Positions 3,096-55,963 of a stretch of DNA of 64,000 nucleotides are shown here, piece by piece (position 1 is the first letter of the stretch; the number at the start of each line of letters is the position of its first letter). The translations under genes and the position numbers were made by a program. The DNA is taken from the NCBI GenBank assembly GCA_017540265.1, contig JAFYBJ010000011.1, positions 1 to 64,000 on the forward strand. Direction: 5' to 3'. Source of the DNA: Lachnospiraceae bacterium (GTDB lineage Bacteria; Bacillota; Clostridia; Lachnospirales; Lachnospiraceae). The notes beneath the pieces are model-generated. The model was not told the origin of the DNA, did no database searches, and was given only the letters and a program-made list of their open reading frames with translations.

Positions 3096-3707
3096 ATGGA
3101 CCAGATCAAGATTGGAAAATTCATAGCATCCTGCAGGAAGGAGGTGGGCATGACCCAGGCTGTCCTTGCTGAGAAGCTCGGGATAAGTGACCGGGCGGTC
3201 AGCAAATGGGAAACAGGAAAGTCTATGCCGGATTCCGGAATAATGCTGGAGTTATGTGAACTATTAAATATTAATGTAAACGAACTCCTGTCGGGCGAAA
3301 AGATCATGACAGAAACTTATAATAAGAAGGCAGAGGAAAATCTTCTTGCAATGAAGAAGGAGGTCGATGAAAAGAACAGGCTGCTGTTAAATCTGGAGAT
3401 CATCATCGGCGTTCCGGCAATGCTGGCAGACTTTGTTATATACGGGGTTGCGGCATATGTTGAGATGCCGGACGCTCTAAGGTCAGGCCTTATCATATTC
3501 GCTACCCTGATGATACTTGTGGTCGCGTTTATTGCAGTAGGAATAGAACAGAAAGCCGGGTATTATGAATGTAAAAACTGCCATGACAGGCATGTGCCCA
3601 CATATTGGCAGGCAAATCTCGCTCCGCATATAGGAAGATCAAGATATATGAAATGCCCGGCCTGCGGCAAATGGACTTATCAGAAAAAAGTCCTTACAAA
3701 AGAATAA
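3096..3707 (+). CDS. XRE-family HTH regulator with two membrane segments and a zinc-ribbon tail
   Basis: The start is placed at the ATG at 3096 because AAGGAGGTG (3081-3089) lies just upstream; an in-frame ATG at 3066 lacks a ribosome site. Residues 5-60 form a Cro/CI-type helix-turn-helix (I-G-K-F-I-A then M-T-Q, L-G-I-S-D-R-A-V-S-K-W-E). Two hydrophobic segments follow near residues 105-130 and 137-160. The C-terminus has two CxxC knuckles (C-K-N-C and C-P-A-C), likely binding zinc. Membrane-anchored XRE proteins of this design are common in Clostridia. The target genes and signal are unknown. Confidence 0.8.
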   Translation: MDQIKIGKFIASCRKEVGMTQAVLAEKLGISDRAVSKWETGKSMPDSGIMLELCELLNINVNELLSGEKIMTETYNKKAEENLLAMKKEVDEKNRLLLNLEIIIGVPAMLADFVIYGVAAYVEMPDALRSGLIIFATLMILVVAFIAVGIEQKAGYYECKNCHDRHVPTYWQANLAPHIGRSRYMKCPACGKWTYQKKVLTKE

Positions 3708-52108: not shown

Positions 52109-52144
52109 CAGGACAGGGGGACGGTTCTCCTGTCCTGTTCTTTT
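52107..52144 (+). terminator. Terminator made from a family-B palindrome
   Basis: An 11-bp stem AACAGGACAGG / CCTGTCCTGTT enclosing GGGACGGTTCT, then TTTT. The left arm overlaps the hypE stop codon. Confidence 0.8.
52111..52135 (+). repeat. REP-like palindrome, family B, copy 1
   Basis: GGACAGG-ggGACGGTTCT-CCTGTCC. It is the same element, inverted, as at 54041-54070. Confidence 0.7.
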
Positions 52145-52156
52145 GTTTTATCGGAA

Positions 52157-53194
52157 TTACAGAGACCGTATCACCATCTGCAGCTCATCAGGATAAATGC
52201 AGTTTGGAAAAGACGGATCATTTAACTTATTAAAGCATTCGACCGGGTCCATCCATTTTGCATCATCTACTTCCGATTCCTGAAATACGAGGTTTTGAAA
52301 TTTTTTTCCGTCAAAGCTGATATGTCCGTCATTATCTCTGATGCATTTGCACAGATATACAAAGCTCACCTCGTCATCCTTAAAAAGTTTTCCGTGAAAT
52401 TCTTTTTCAAAACTTCCCTTGTGCAGACCGAGAAATATAAGATCATTTTCTTTTATATCAAGTCCCAGTTCTTCTTTCATTTCTCTGATGGCAGAAGAAA
52501 CGGGATCATCACCCGCAGCTATGTGTCCCGCTGATGAGATATCATAACATCCGGGATTTGAGTCTTTACAGGCAGCTCTTTTCTGAAACAATACATTTTT
52601 TCCGTCGCTTATCCACATATGTGATGAGCGGTGCTTCGTGCCAAGGAAGTGGGCGGTCTCTCTTTCCTCTGTTTTTCCGGTAGGATTGCCGTTATCATCA
52701 ACTATATCGAAAAGCTCAAGATCTTTTCCGTTGAGAACGGCAGCTGTGAACCTGTCATCTCCGTCATATACAAGTTTAAGCGAGAAAAAGGGGGATTTTT
52801 GCGCAAGCAGTCTTAAGAACACCCTGTCCCCGTCCCAGAGATCCATATTCCAGAGAAGCTCTTTGGGCACCCATTCCAGCACGCCTTCATCACAGACTGG
52901 GAGTTCTTCAGGTTCGATAAAATCTGATGAGGTGAATATCATCATATACTCTGTGAATATTTTTTCAGCTCCGGAAACAAAAGTAACAATACCTCTGAAA
53001 TCCGGTGATTCAACTATTATCCCGGTTTCCTCAAGGATCTCACGTTTTATACAGTCCTCTGGGCTTTCGCCTTCTTCGCAGTGTCCTCCGATACCTATCC
53101 ATTTATCCTTATTCATGTCCTGTTCTTTTTTGATACGGTGGAGCATGAGGTATTTTTCATCTTTTTCAAGATAGCATAAAGTTGTACAGGTCAT
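52157..53194 (-). CDS. Tandem NUDIX hydrolase
   Basis: A protein of about 345 aa, placed at ATG 53194 (AAAGGA upstream); an in-frame ATG at 53221 has no site. Domain 1 (about 1-140) is MutT-like with G-G-H-C-E-E-G-E-S and R-E-I-L-E-E-T-G-I, fitting 8-oxo-dGTP diphosphatases. Domain 2 (about 160-345) resembles the Idi/YfcD branch, with Y-D-I-S-S-A-G-H-I-A-A-G and R-E-M-K-E-E-L-G-L. Both NUDIX boxes look intact. The double arrangement suggests two linked hydrolase activities. The gene converges on hypE. Confidence 0.88.
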   Translation of the reverse strand: MTCTTLCYLEKDEKYLMLHRIKKEQDMNKDKWIGIGGHCEEGESPEDCIKREILEETGIIVESPDFRGIVTFVSGAEKIFTEYMMIFTSSDFIEPEELPVCDEGVLEWVPKELLWNMDLWDGDRVFLRLLAQKSPFFSLKLVYDGDDRFTAAVLNGKDLELFDIVDDNGNPTGKTEERETAHFLGTKHRSSHMWISDGKNVLFQKRAACKDSNPGCYDISSAGHIAAGDDPVSSAIREMKEELGLDIKENDLIFLGLHKGSFEKEFHGKLFKDDEVSFVYLCKCIRDNDGHISFDGKKFQNLVFQESEVDDAKWMDPVECFNKLNDPSFPNCIYPDELQMVIRSL

Positions 53195-53301
53195 TTGATT
53201 TTTCCTTTTCAAACATTTCAACCAATATGTTCATGGAGATGTCCTCATTTTTATCTTTTCTGTTCGATTCCAAGCATTTCAGCGGATTCCGAATGTTTGC
53301 A

Positions 53302-53335
53302 GGATTGCGAGAGTTGCGGAGCAACGAAGCAATCC
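53302..53335. repeat. Palindromic element (third family)
   Basis: GGATTGC-gaga-GTTGC-gga-GCAAC-gaa-GCAATCC, a nested hairpin resembling other dispersed intergenic palindromes. One copy is seen in this window. Confidence 0.5.
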
Positions 53336-53347
53336 GTGGCATCTATT

Positions 53348-53372
53348 GGGGGCAAAATACCTTTTGACCCCA
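53348..53372. repeat. Small inverted repeat
   Basis: GGGGGCAAAA-tac-cTTTTGACCCC. No T-run on the + strand, so it is not clearly a terminator. Confidence 0.45.
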
Positions 53373-53503
53373 ACATCATTATATTAATTATGGAATTATT
53401 CATACAAGGGTAAGTTACCAAAAGTATAGAGGCATAGCTATAAGTTCAGGCAAGTTGAAGAATAATATAGATGTTACCCTGGGATATGTTTCGATCTCCG
53501 AGT

Positions 53504-54008
53504 GAAAAGCAATAATATTAGGCGGAAGTAAGATAATTATTGCTTTTAGGTATAAAGGTGCGGGAAAGCCGGTATGAAAAGCAATAATATTAGGCGGAAG
53601 TAAGATAATTATTGCTTTTAGGCATAAAGGTGCGGGAAAGCCGGTATGAAAAGCAATAATATTAGGCGGAAGTAAGATAATTATTGCTTTTAGGCATAAA
53701 GCCGTTGGGAAAGCAGGTGAGAAAAGCAATAAAAACAGGCGGAGGTGAGAGAATTATTGCTTTTAGGTATAAAGGTGCGGGGGTGCCGACGAGAAAAGCA
53801 ATAAAAACAGGCGGGAGTAAGAAATTTATTGCTTTTAGGTATAAAGGTGCGGGGGTGCAGGTGAGAAAAGCAATAAAAACAGGCGGAGATGAGAAAATTA
53901 TTGCTTTTAGGTATAAAGGTGCGGGGGTGCCGGCGAGAAAAGCAATAAAAACAGGCGGGAGTAAGAAATTTATTGCTTTTAGGCATGGTGCAGGGCACAG
54001 CATGTGAG
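53504..54008. repeat. Seven-unit 72-bp tandem hairpin array
   Basis: Units begin at 53504, 53576, 53648, 53721, 53793, 53865 and 53937 (periods 72, 72, 73, 72, 72, 72). Each unit reads AAAAGCAATAA, about 20 nt of loop containing GGCGG, TTATTGCTTTTAGG, then a GC-rich linker with GGTGCGGG. Units 1-3 share one variant and units 5 and 7 another; the stem's twelfth pair is T:A in the first set and A:T in the second. The last unit ends in a divergent linker (GGTGCAGGGCACAG). The two sides are short, otherwise gene-free DNA. Confidence 0.9.
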
Positions 54009-54040
54009 CAGATTAGCTCAGTAGTATGAATGATCCTGAG

Positions 54041-54070
54041 CAAGACAGGAGAACCGTCCCCCCTGTCTTG
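54041..54070 (-). repeat. REP-like palindrome, family B, copy 2 (inverted)
   Basis: CAAGACAGG / CCTGTCTTG around AGAACCGTCCCC, the reverse complement of the 52111 element. Confidence 0.7.
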
Positions 54071-54075
54071 CCCTG

Positions 54076-54141
54076 ACGCAGTTTGGAATCACGGAAAGCT
54101 ATCTGAATAAGCTGACAAAAGAGGTTAATAAGAGATTTTAG
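54076..54141 (+). pseudogene. Possible C-terminal remnant of a lost gene
   Basis: A 21-codon open stretch ending in TAG translates to a plausible helical end (T-Q-F-G-I-T-E-S-Y-L-N-K). It has no start and begins right after a family-B palindrome. Weak evidence. Confidence 0.25.
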
Positions 54142-54188
54142 TTATACGAATTTGGAGAAGTTAAGGTAAAAACAGGCGTAATTGGGAG

Positions 54189-54216
54189 TTGACAGGATTT
54201 GAAATAAGGATATAAT
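54189..54216 (+). promoter_or_regulatory. Distal promoter of the exporter operon
   Basis: TTGACA (54189-54194), a 16-bp spacer, then TATAAT (54211-54216). Both hexamers match the consensus fully. Confidence 0.7.
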
Positions 54217-54280
54217 ACAAACGTATGAATAAGTGTTCATATAATCAAAGAAAAGAGTACGGGGCGTTGAGTCCCGGCAA

Positions 54281-54308
54281 TTGACTTTTTTTATCGAGTT
54301 AGTATAAT
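54281..54308 (+). promoter_or_regulatory. Proximal promoter of the exporter operon
   Basis: TTGACT (54281-54286), a 16-bp spacer, then TATAAT (54303-54308), 72 nt before the ATG at 54380. Confidence 0.7.
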
Positions 54309-54313
54309 CTAAC
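54298..54313 (+). promoter_or_regulatory. Operator-like palindrome over the proximal -10
   Basis: GTTAG-TATAAT-CTAAC: a 5-bp inverted repeat exactly flanking the -10 box, a natural place for a repressor. No regulator gene is adjacent. Confidence 0.45.
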
Positions 54314-54379
54314 CTGAGTTTTAAATGTAACACATGTGTTTCAAGTGTCGTCAGAAGCAGATGACAGAATGGAGAAGCT

Positions 54380-55963
54380 ATGAAAACAAAAGATACGAAA
54401 GCAAATGAAATGAAACTGAAAGTTGCAAAAAAAAGTAATATGAGGAATATCTTTATCAGATCCATTGCGGCAGGCACTGCTCTTATCTCGCTTGCTTTAG
54501 CCGGATGCGGGAAAAAAGAAGCACTTTCTCCCGGAAGTATCACTGTTCTTGAGCCGGTCAGTTTTGTGGAGAAAGTAAGGGCAGACGGAACAGTGGAATG
54601 TTCGGAGCCTCATTATATTTATTCAAACCTTACACTTCCGGTTCAGGAGATATACGTTAAGGAAGGCGATCATGTCAGTGAAGGAGACCTGCTCTGCAAG
54701 CTGGATGTCAGGACTATCGAAGAGCAGATTGAGATCCAGCAGGCGGCGATGGAACTTACACAGAAAAATGCATCCTCACAGGAAGATGCCGCAAGAAGAC
54801 AATACAATATATACAGTGAAGGCCTTAAAGGCGGAACCGATGTAAATCTGGTAGCGGCAAAGGCTGCGATGGAAAGCGCCAGAGAAGTATATGAAACAGC
54901 AAAGAAGCGTTATGACGATTATATGGAATCACTTAACATGGGCATGGATCCCGCGCTTTCGGCGGCGGATCAGGCTGTCGCAAAAGCTGCTACGGCTCTT
55001 CATCAGGCAAAGTCAATGCAATATGAGCTTGATGATGAAGAGCATGTAACCGACATCCAGAAAGAGGAAGCAGAGGATGCGGTAGACAGCGCAAGCCTTG
55101 CATATGTACAGGCAGTTGAGAGTAAAAAGAATCTGCTGCGTCAGAGCGATATAACTCTTGCGGATTACGCAAAGAATGCAGATGATGCAAACTTAAACTA
55201 CATCATAGCCCAGAGCGCTTATAACGCTGCTGTGCGCGCACTTGAAAATGCGAAAGCAACTACTACGGACGCCATTAATAAGGCTGTTCTTTCGGGTGAT
55301 ATGAGCGTTGAAGATTTAAAACTCGCCCAGCTCAGGCAGAAGCTTGTCGATTCAAACATCACTTCGGATTTTGAAGGTACTGTCACCGCAGTGAATGTTG
55401 AAGTCGGGGAAAATTCCACGGGTGTTCTGTTTGTGGTAGAAGATACTTCAGATCTTATTCTGACGGCAAGAGTTCCCGAAAAAGATATCAATTCCATTTC
55501 ATCAGATATGGCCATCACGGTAACGCCAAAGGCGGATAATTCAGGTTCCTACAAAGGCGTGATAAGCCGCGTGGCGGATTCATCGGAAAAGAACGCATCC
55601 GGAAAAACCGATACCTCAGGTGAAGACGCCGAATATAAAGTGACCATCGTCATCGAGGATCCTGATGAGCGCATCAGGATAGGAATGAATGCAGATGCAG
55701 AATTTACAGTGTTTGAACAGGAAGGCTGTTTTACGGTTCCAAAGGATGCCGTGTATAAGGATGAAGAAGGAAGCACTTCAGTTCTTGCTGTCAATACAGC
55801 AGAAGGGAGCGGAACCGTAATAAAAACGCCTGTAAGCGTAGTATATGCGGGGAAGAGCATGAACGTGATAGAAGGAAGCGGTATAGCAAGCGGAACACGC
55901 GTGCTTACGGATGCCTCGGCCGGTATGGAACTTGTGGGGACCCGTGTCAACATTGGCAAATAA
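54380..55963 (+). CDS. Membrane-fusion (HlyD/MacA-like) lipoprotein of an ABC exporter
   Basis: This 527-aa protein has a basic N-terminus, a signal segment and the lipobox A-L-A-G-C. The adaptor body follows the MacA/YknX plan: a lipoyl-like half (V-Q-E-I-Y-V-K-E-G-D-H-V), a long coiled coil (about 110-320), then beta-barrel and membrane-proximal domains. It would link the permease to the outer side of the membrane or cell wall. GGAG lies 6 nt before the ATG. It heads an operon with the ATPase and FtsX-type permease genes. Confidence 0.88.
   Translation: MKTKDTKANEMKLKVAKKSNMRNIFIRSIAAGTALISLALAGCGKKEALSPGSITVLEPVSFVEKVRADGTVECSEPHYIYSNLTLPVQEIYVKEGDHVSEGDLLCKLDVRTIEEQIEIQQAAMELTQKNASSQEDAARRQYNIYSEGLKGGTDVNLVAAKAAMESAREVYETAKKRYDDYMESLNMGMDPALSAADQAVAKAATALHQAKSMQYELDDEEHVTDIQKEEAEDAVDSASLAYVQAVESKKNLLRQSDITLADYAKNADDANLNYIIAQSAYNAAVRALENAKATTTDAINKAVLSGDMSVEDLKLAQLRQKLVDSNITSDFEGTVTAVNVEVGENSTGVLFVVEDTSDLILTARVPEKDINSISSDMAITVTPKADNSGSYKGVISRVADSSEKNASGKTDTSGEDAEYKVTIVIEDPDERIRIGMNADAEFTVFEQEGCFTVPKDAVYKDEEGSTSVLAVNTAEGSGTVIKTPVSVVYAGKSMNVIEGSGIASGTRVLTDASAGMELVGTRVNIGK

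Follow-up and report, generated by a model that had tools for sequence, protein, structure and literature searches.

The tandem array described here belongs to a composite repeat family that occurs in two genera of Lachnospiraceae. Its members share a fixed geometry, with an inverted-repeat unit of 43–44 nt that recurs at a period of about 73, and combine near-invariant arms with loops and linkers that are roughly ten times more divergent. With moderate confidence, we read the family as a probable miniature mobile element carrying paired inverted 11-base sites that are putatively bound by a protein on one face of the helix. It is an intergenic repeat that resembles a folded RNA, but DNA sites account for it better: its arms are frozen, its loops free and its length fixed.

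The array and its relatives

Within the window, by which we mean the whole 64,000-nt stretch that was analysed, the array comprises seven units, each made of AAAAGCAATAA, a 21-nt loop, TTATTGCTTTT and a 29-nt linker (30 nt after unit 3), with a period of 72 that rises once to 73 between units 3 and 4 (Table 1). The earlier note had described this architecture correctly: a seven-unit array in a gene-free stretch, 11-bp arms that are exact in all seven units, GGCGG retained in all seven loops, and a twelfth position that reads T:A in units 1–3, A:A in units 4 and 6, and A:T in units 5 and 7. Its dismissal of a CRISPR array also stands: the regular spacing is CRISPR-like, whereas here the loops and linkers between repeats recur as well and the unit is a tandemly multiplied inverted repeat. 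That everything between the hairpins repeats holds for the linkers, with two exceptions: the linker that follows unit 3 and the sequence running out beyond unit 7. With up to one mismatch allowed, the window has 19 copies of AAAAGCAATAA, including the 14 arms, against a mean of 2.87 and a maximum of 9 in 100 shuffles.

Table 1. Positions of the array, its units and neighbouring intergenic features in the window
Feature	Position	Strand	Basis
Tandem array of seven 72-bp inverted-repeat units	53504..53983	+	
Unit 1 hairpin: arm AAAAGCAATAA, 21-nt loop, arm TTATTGCTTTT; type a, loop TATTAGGCGG...	53505..53547	+	
Unit 2 hairpin, type a	53577..53619	+	
Unit 3 hairpin, type a; linker divergent, 30 nt	53649..53691	+	
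Unit 4 hairpin, type b, loop AAACAGGCGG...	53722..53764	+	
Unit 5 hairpin, type b	53794..53836	+	
Unit 6 hairpin, type b	53866..53908	+	
Unit 7 hairpin, type b; downstream sequence departs from the repeat	53938..53980	+	
Intergenic region between divergent genes, with the array inside	53222..54379	.	
GCAAGACAGGAGAACCGTCCCCCCTGTCTTGC hairpin, about 60 nt past the last unit; has the GACAG..GAAC.G.CCC motif	54040..54071	+	
Two candidate sigma-70-like promoters between array and HlyD-type gene: TTGACA-16-TATAAT from 54189, TTGACT-16-TATAAT from 54281	54189..54308	+	consensus match only

The surrounding gap measures 1,158 bp and is bounded on the left by a NUDIX gene (52157–53221, minus strand) and on the right by an HlyD-type gene (54380–55963, plus strand) that is followed by ABC and FtsX genes. 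Comparing the flanks of the array for repeats returned a 10-bp inverted match and nothing else. Two further hairpins are seen in the sequence left of the array, in the same gap (53302–53335 and 53346–53373). A link to ABC-transporter genes, as the window and L145 might suggest, was considered and rejected: by eye, other arrays adjoin different genes.

How widespread is the family? With a doubled consensus as query and E values up to 0.001, blastn placed the array in one of the 35 genomes of its genus, namely its own, and across 397 genomes of the bacterial family returned short, weak matches in 22 others (best E 1.2e-4). Relatives that blastn had missed were retrieved with a pattern of the two arms and a free gap of 14–60. 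In the window's own genome (G000, a 73% complete assembly), this pattern matched 11 times, seven times in the window array and four times in a second array on contig C52. It matched 72 times in G429, the uncultured Lachnospiraceae bacterium RUG11815, in whose name we take RUG to stand for rumen; since G429 is not among the 35 genomes of the window's genus, we treat it as a member of another. Of the 61 genomes in that second genus, 51 lack any match, G488 has five and G442 has one, within a three-unit array, while seven more have one to three each that look unrelated by eye. The search of other genomes called for in the earlier note thus places the family in three genomes of another genus. Elsewhere, 12 of the 34 other genomes of the window's own genus yielded a single match apiece, which by eye belonged to other kinds, and a tighter arm pattern gave one match each in 8 of 396 other genomes of the bacterial family. 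A scan of genome contigs matched six stretches, one array (L045) and five single hairpins; a scan of viral contigs matched 13, of which the nine inspected were all single, chance-like matches, and another scan gave two. Window positions 53480–54110 had no blastn match among phages and plasmids.

Altogether, we read 82 units in 22 arrays from four genomes: 62 units in 17 arrays of G429 (drawn from about 0.6 of its 3.0 Mb), six in two arrays of G488 and three in one array of G442, to which the two arrays of the window's own genome add 11. The arrays number 23 if one that is split by an insertion sequence is counted twice; at L117 2830–4800, an array linker is interrupted by an insertion sequence whose transposase is, by eye, IS3-like. 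Outside units, AAAAGCAATAA occurs three times in 607,551 bases of G429 (1.4 expected), and two of these three are half units at array or contig edges.

The window array and the second-genus arrays have their geometry in common, together with the arms: unit length and period agree, and the window units additionally share 18 nt, AAAAGCAATAAAAACAGG, with units of two G429 arrays (L118 and L212). Under a search that allowed 41–46 nt, units were 43 nt long in 15 cases and 44 nt in 67; with the arm pattern and gaps of 14–60, the matches listed for G429 were all of the same length within one base. Arrays hold one to seven units. Of 59 periods, 56 fall within 72–74 and 42 equal 73; the outlying values of 62, 63 and 83, all from two arrays (L104 and L168), are about one helical turn less or more, which is suggestive only of a helical phasing of the units. 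No array has a period near 146, so no unit inside the arrays was missed by the finder.

Arm sequence, folding and reading frames

Between neighbouring units, 25 of 1298 arm positions differ (1.9%), as opposed to 251 of 1200 loop positions (20.9%) and 177 of 869 linker positions (20.4%), a comparison in which the unit finder, with up to three mismatches per arm and five in total, is biased towards conserved arms. Both arms are exact in 63 of the 82 units. The earlier note had taken paired changes in different units as a sign that the fold, and not just the sequence, is kept. Across the family, this does not hold up: the 21 arm deviations in the 82 units comprise one G:C pair, changed on both sides and hence compensated, six G:T wobbles, and fourteen broken pairs (eight A:C, three C:T, three T:T). 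Near-invariant arms, drifting loops and linkers, and so little compensation argue for DNA sites that are read as sequence rather than for a kept fold, and point to arms conserved as sequence.

The same conclusion emerges from an alignment of 54 of the 70 distinct units, from which near-duplicates had been removed by hand. RNAalifold predicted the 11 arm pairs and no others, with a covariation term of 0.05 kcal/mol. When the helix was extended to 18 pairs, 74.9% of cells were paired, compared with 74.4% in shuffles, and on the five measures applied to it, between 76 and 465 of 500 shuffles did at least as well, so that none gives the helix a clear win. Slid versions of the helix paired in 38.6–55.4% of cells, as is expected for any inverted repeat. 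Apart from position 12 alone, compensatory changes beyond chance were absent. Out of 70 distinct units, 44 have this position paired, versus 33.2 in shuffles, and about one in 2000 shuffles reached the observed count (p 0.0005, with relatedness ignored). In the remaining 26, however, it reads A:A or T:T, and duplication makes the units kin to one another; pairing at positions 13–18 is not above that in shuffles. The T:A, A:A and A:T series of the window thus represents a few inherited states, mismatch included, and not the covariation that the earlier note saw there. Herein lies a trap: in a comparison confined to a single array, tandem duplication can mimic covariation.

These results also bear on whether the array might be transcribed and its tandem stem-loops kept as RNA structure, be it for processing, stability or attenuation. 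Window units of 72 nt do fold at −14.3 to −19.0 kcal/mol each, their arms pair perfectly, and both the excess at position 12 and the advantage over slid helices are in line with such a role, the latter as it would be for any inverted repeat. However, the negligible covariation term, the five measures without clear excess over shuffles, and the predominance of pair-breaking over compensated deviations all speak against it, and an Rfam scan of the window found no match at gathering scores. Promoter consensus matches numbered 6, compared with 4.2 in shuffles, and the two candidates for the right-hand gene are situated past the array, so that the HlyD-type mRNA, if they are used, would exclude it. 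We therefore regard a stable RNA as quite improbable. A coding repeat was rejected as well. Open reading frames of 104–117 aa span the array because 72 equals 3 × 24; the three that were scanned against Pfam gave nothing over a cut-off, and most arrays elsewhere have a period of 73, at which no reading frame survives.

Element ends and IS1182-type terminal repeats

Beyond the arrays of the second genus, the sequence becomes common again, ending in ...CCGGTGTGATTTACCACAACCGGCTTTGTCTACAGTCTGA on one side and in ...GACAGTGGAACTGCCCCTGACTTTGTCTACAGTCTGA on the other, with CTTTGTCTACAGTCTGA as the terminal 17-mer. Searching 260 nt outward with up to four mismatches (three at most were found), we located this 17-mer on 14 of 44 array sides and at 10 of 22 arrays; six of the sides are cut shorter than 260 nt by contig ends, four of them to under 60. 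All ten belong to the 20 second-genus arrays, with the 17-mer on one side in six and on both sides in four (L114, L116, L117, L166). The other 12 of the 22 arrays lack it at either side, and it is absent from the four sides of the two arrays in the window's genome, where it also has no match genome-wide. At up to two mismatches, its genome-wide occurrences lie at array ends in eight of nine cases in G429, three of three in G488 and none of three in G442, and a reversed 17-mer used as control matched once in G429, twice in G488 and never in the others. Two of the three occurrences in G442 form a bare 64-bp mini-element (L178 1501–1564, on contig C50) in which a hairpin separates two terminal repeats; it is itself flanked by two hairpins, one of them after a tRNA-like stretch (by eye).

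A separate scan of viral contigs located the 17-mer in six stretches. L195, the one examined for a transposase, has an identical copy 82 nt beyond the stop codon of a reading frame assigned to NF033551, the IS1182 family transposase (E = 3.2e-63). This match is partial owing to the contig end and scores 214 bits, under the 270-bit cut-off. No IS1182 transposase exceeded the cut-off in G000, G429, G488 or G442, with one weak match in G429 (E 4.5e-7), and the elements may therefore be old or mobilised from outside.

Terminal repeats in the second genus mostly adjoin hairpins: a fold of −10 kcal/mol or better lies within 45 nt of 11 of the 14, a raw count without shuffled control, and four of these 11 have a T run. 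At L166 and L167, the hairpin beside the terminal repeat follows a gene end. In G429, the orthologous genes (68–69% identical, on contig C334) have no array beside them at the places of these two G488 arrays, but at each locus the second flanking gene is a different one, so that these are not clean empty sites and rearrangement is possible. Among 29 loci of about 3 kb, none was a syntenic relative of the window locus. Since the arrays of its own genome carry no terminal repeat, it is by analogy alone that the window copy, too, may have moved as a unit.

A motif defined post hoc from array ends, GACAG..GAAC.G.CCC, recurs 33–38 nt past six arrays besides that of the window; of its 10 matches, seven are no more than 64 nt from an array, and both genera are represented among these. 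The arrayless matches are at window position 52117, in another genome of the genus, and in 245 kb of G000. At 52117, on the minus strand between an AIRS-domain gene and the NUDIX gene, the sequence forms a second GACAGGAGAACCGTCCCCCTGTC-type hairpin, without an array.

Origin of the arrays and comparison with known repeats

What, then, might multiply and maintain these arrays? We favour a putative protein that binds the paired arms along one helix face, the arms serving as binding sites for a host nucleoid-type protein or for a transposition or recombination protein. Unit number would grow by slippage or unequal crossing-over, and whole elements could have been dispersed in the past by an IS1182-family transposase acting in trans. 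The window copy would then be a derived member of the family, or a different one, in which transposon ends can no longer be recognised. Two options that the earlier note had raised, a structured DNA target and an expanding satellite, both come near to this reading. If a protein does read the arms, the arrays would give a handle on chromosome organisation or on the growth of BOX-like composite repeats.

In another scenario, palindromic units multiply through slippage during replication or through template switching at hairpins; they would have no function and no reader acting in trans. The spread of one to seven units per array, the greater likeness of units within an array, and arrays that by eye are mosaics of unit types would all follow. 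Such a palindrome process should homogenise arm pairs yet allow them to drift between arrays, whereas one arm sequence is kept in two genera, in units whose loops and linkers differ by 20–21%, and loop length is nearly constant; we hence consider a passive satellite rather unlikely. The mosaics themselves, in which the same unit types turn up in register in several arrays and in changed order (L112, L116, L119, L167; by eye), show exchange between arrays and do not distinguish homologous from site-specific exchange. One could picture the arms as crossover sites of a recombinase, with 73-bp modules inserted and shuffled like integron cassettes. The in-register recurrence would suit this, but the loop of L116 unit 4, which by eye resembles a hybrid of two types, is explicable by ordinary homologous recombination, and we deem site-specific exchange highly improbable. 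A bolder version of protein binding, in which an undescribed DNA-binding protein reads helically phased arm pairs and causes 73-bp modules to be amplified and also to be exchanged from array to array, seems to us unlikely; if true, the arrays would be a protein-organised modular repeat system instead of inert repeats.

As tested, the arrays are a proven member of none of the kinds with which we compared them (BOX, IS1182-family, REPIN, NIME). The nearest architecture is that of pneumococcal BOX and the nearest terminal repeat, where present, is that of the IS1182 family; REPINs and NIMEs are further away. Passages of PMC3049150 describe BOX, boxA-(boxB)n-boxC, as a composite intergenic element with conserved ends, variable tandem inner modules and IS-like terminal repeats. 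The likeness, in architecture and not in sequence, lies in the one to seven tandem inner modules and in ends that are conserved at part of the second-genus arrays. Unlike in BOX, an inverted repeat of 73 bp forms the inner module, its arms almost invariant while loop and linker drift, and the terminal repeat is of IS1182 type and present at part of the arrays only.

According to a section of PMC4923244, IS1272 of the IS1182 family inserts at terminator hairpins. Similarly to IS1272 and TnSha1, the second-genus terminal repeats adjoin hairpins and their 17-mer is identical to one beside an IS1182-type transposase. In contrast to elements of that family, the arrays contain no transposase, their cargo is a hairpin array, and the window copy lacks the terminal repeat; whole hairpins adjoin the repeat here, whereas insertion of IS1272 breaks the stem and removes a portion.

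REPINs and BIMEs, which are REP doublets, appear in part of PMC3116915 as conserved inverted repeats of short length that enclose variable sequence and at times form regular tandem arrays. Our arrays share these features; their arms differ in not being palindromic themselves, as seen in the sequence. A RAYT/REPIN system was rejected, with no PF01797 match in the 73% complete assembly of G000 and two in G429. Conserved inverted short repeats around variable sequence are likewise shared with neisserial NIME/dRS3 arrays; the fixed 73-bp period and loop length set our arrays apart from NIME/dRS3 by description. NIMEs are named alongside BOX in the passages of PMC3049150.

Other tandem repeats also occur at the loci studied. 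L145 has a 17-bp repeat, GAAGTATAATTACATAC, in 8.5 copies (3438–3579) adjoining its hairpin array, and in the window's genome a different repeat with a period of 74, in 2.2 copies and with a AAAAGCAAGCGCTTTT stretch, occupies positions 376–535 of L258 (contig C2).
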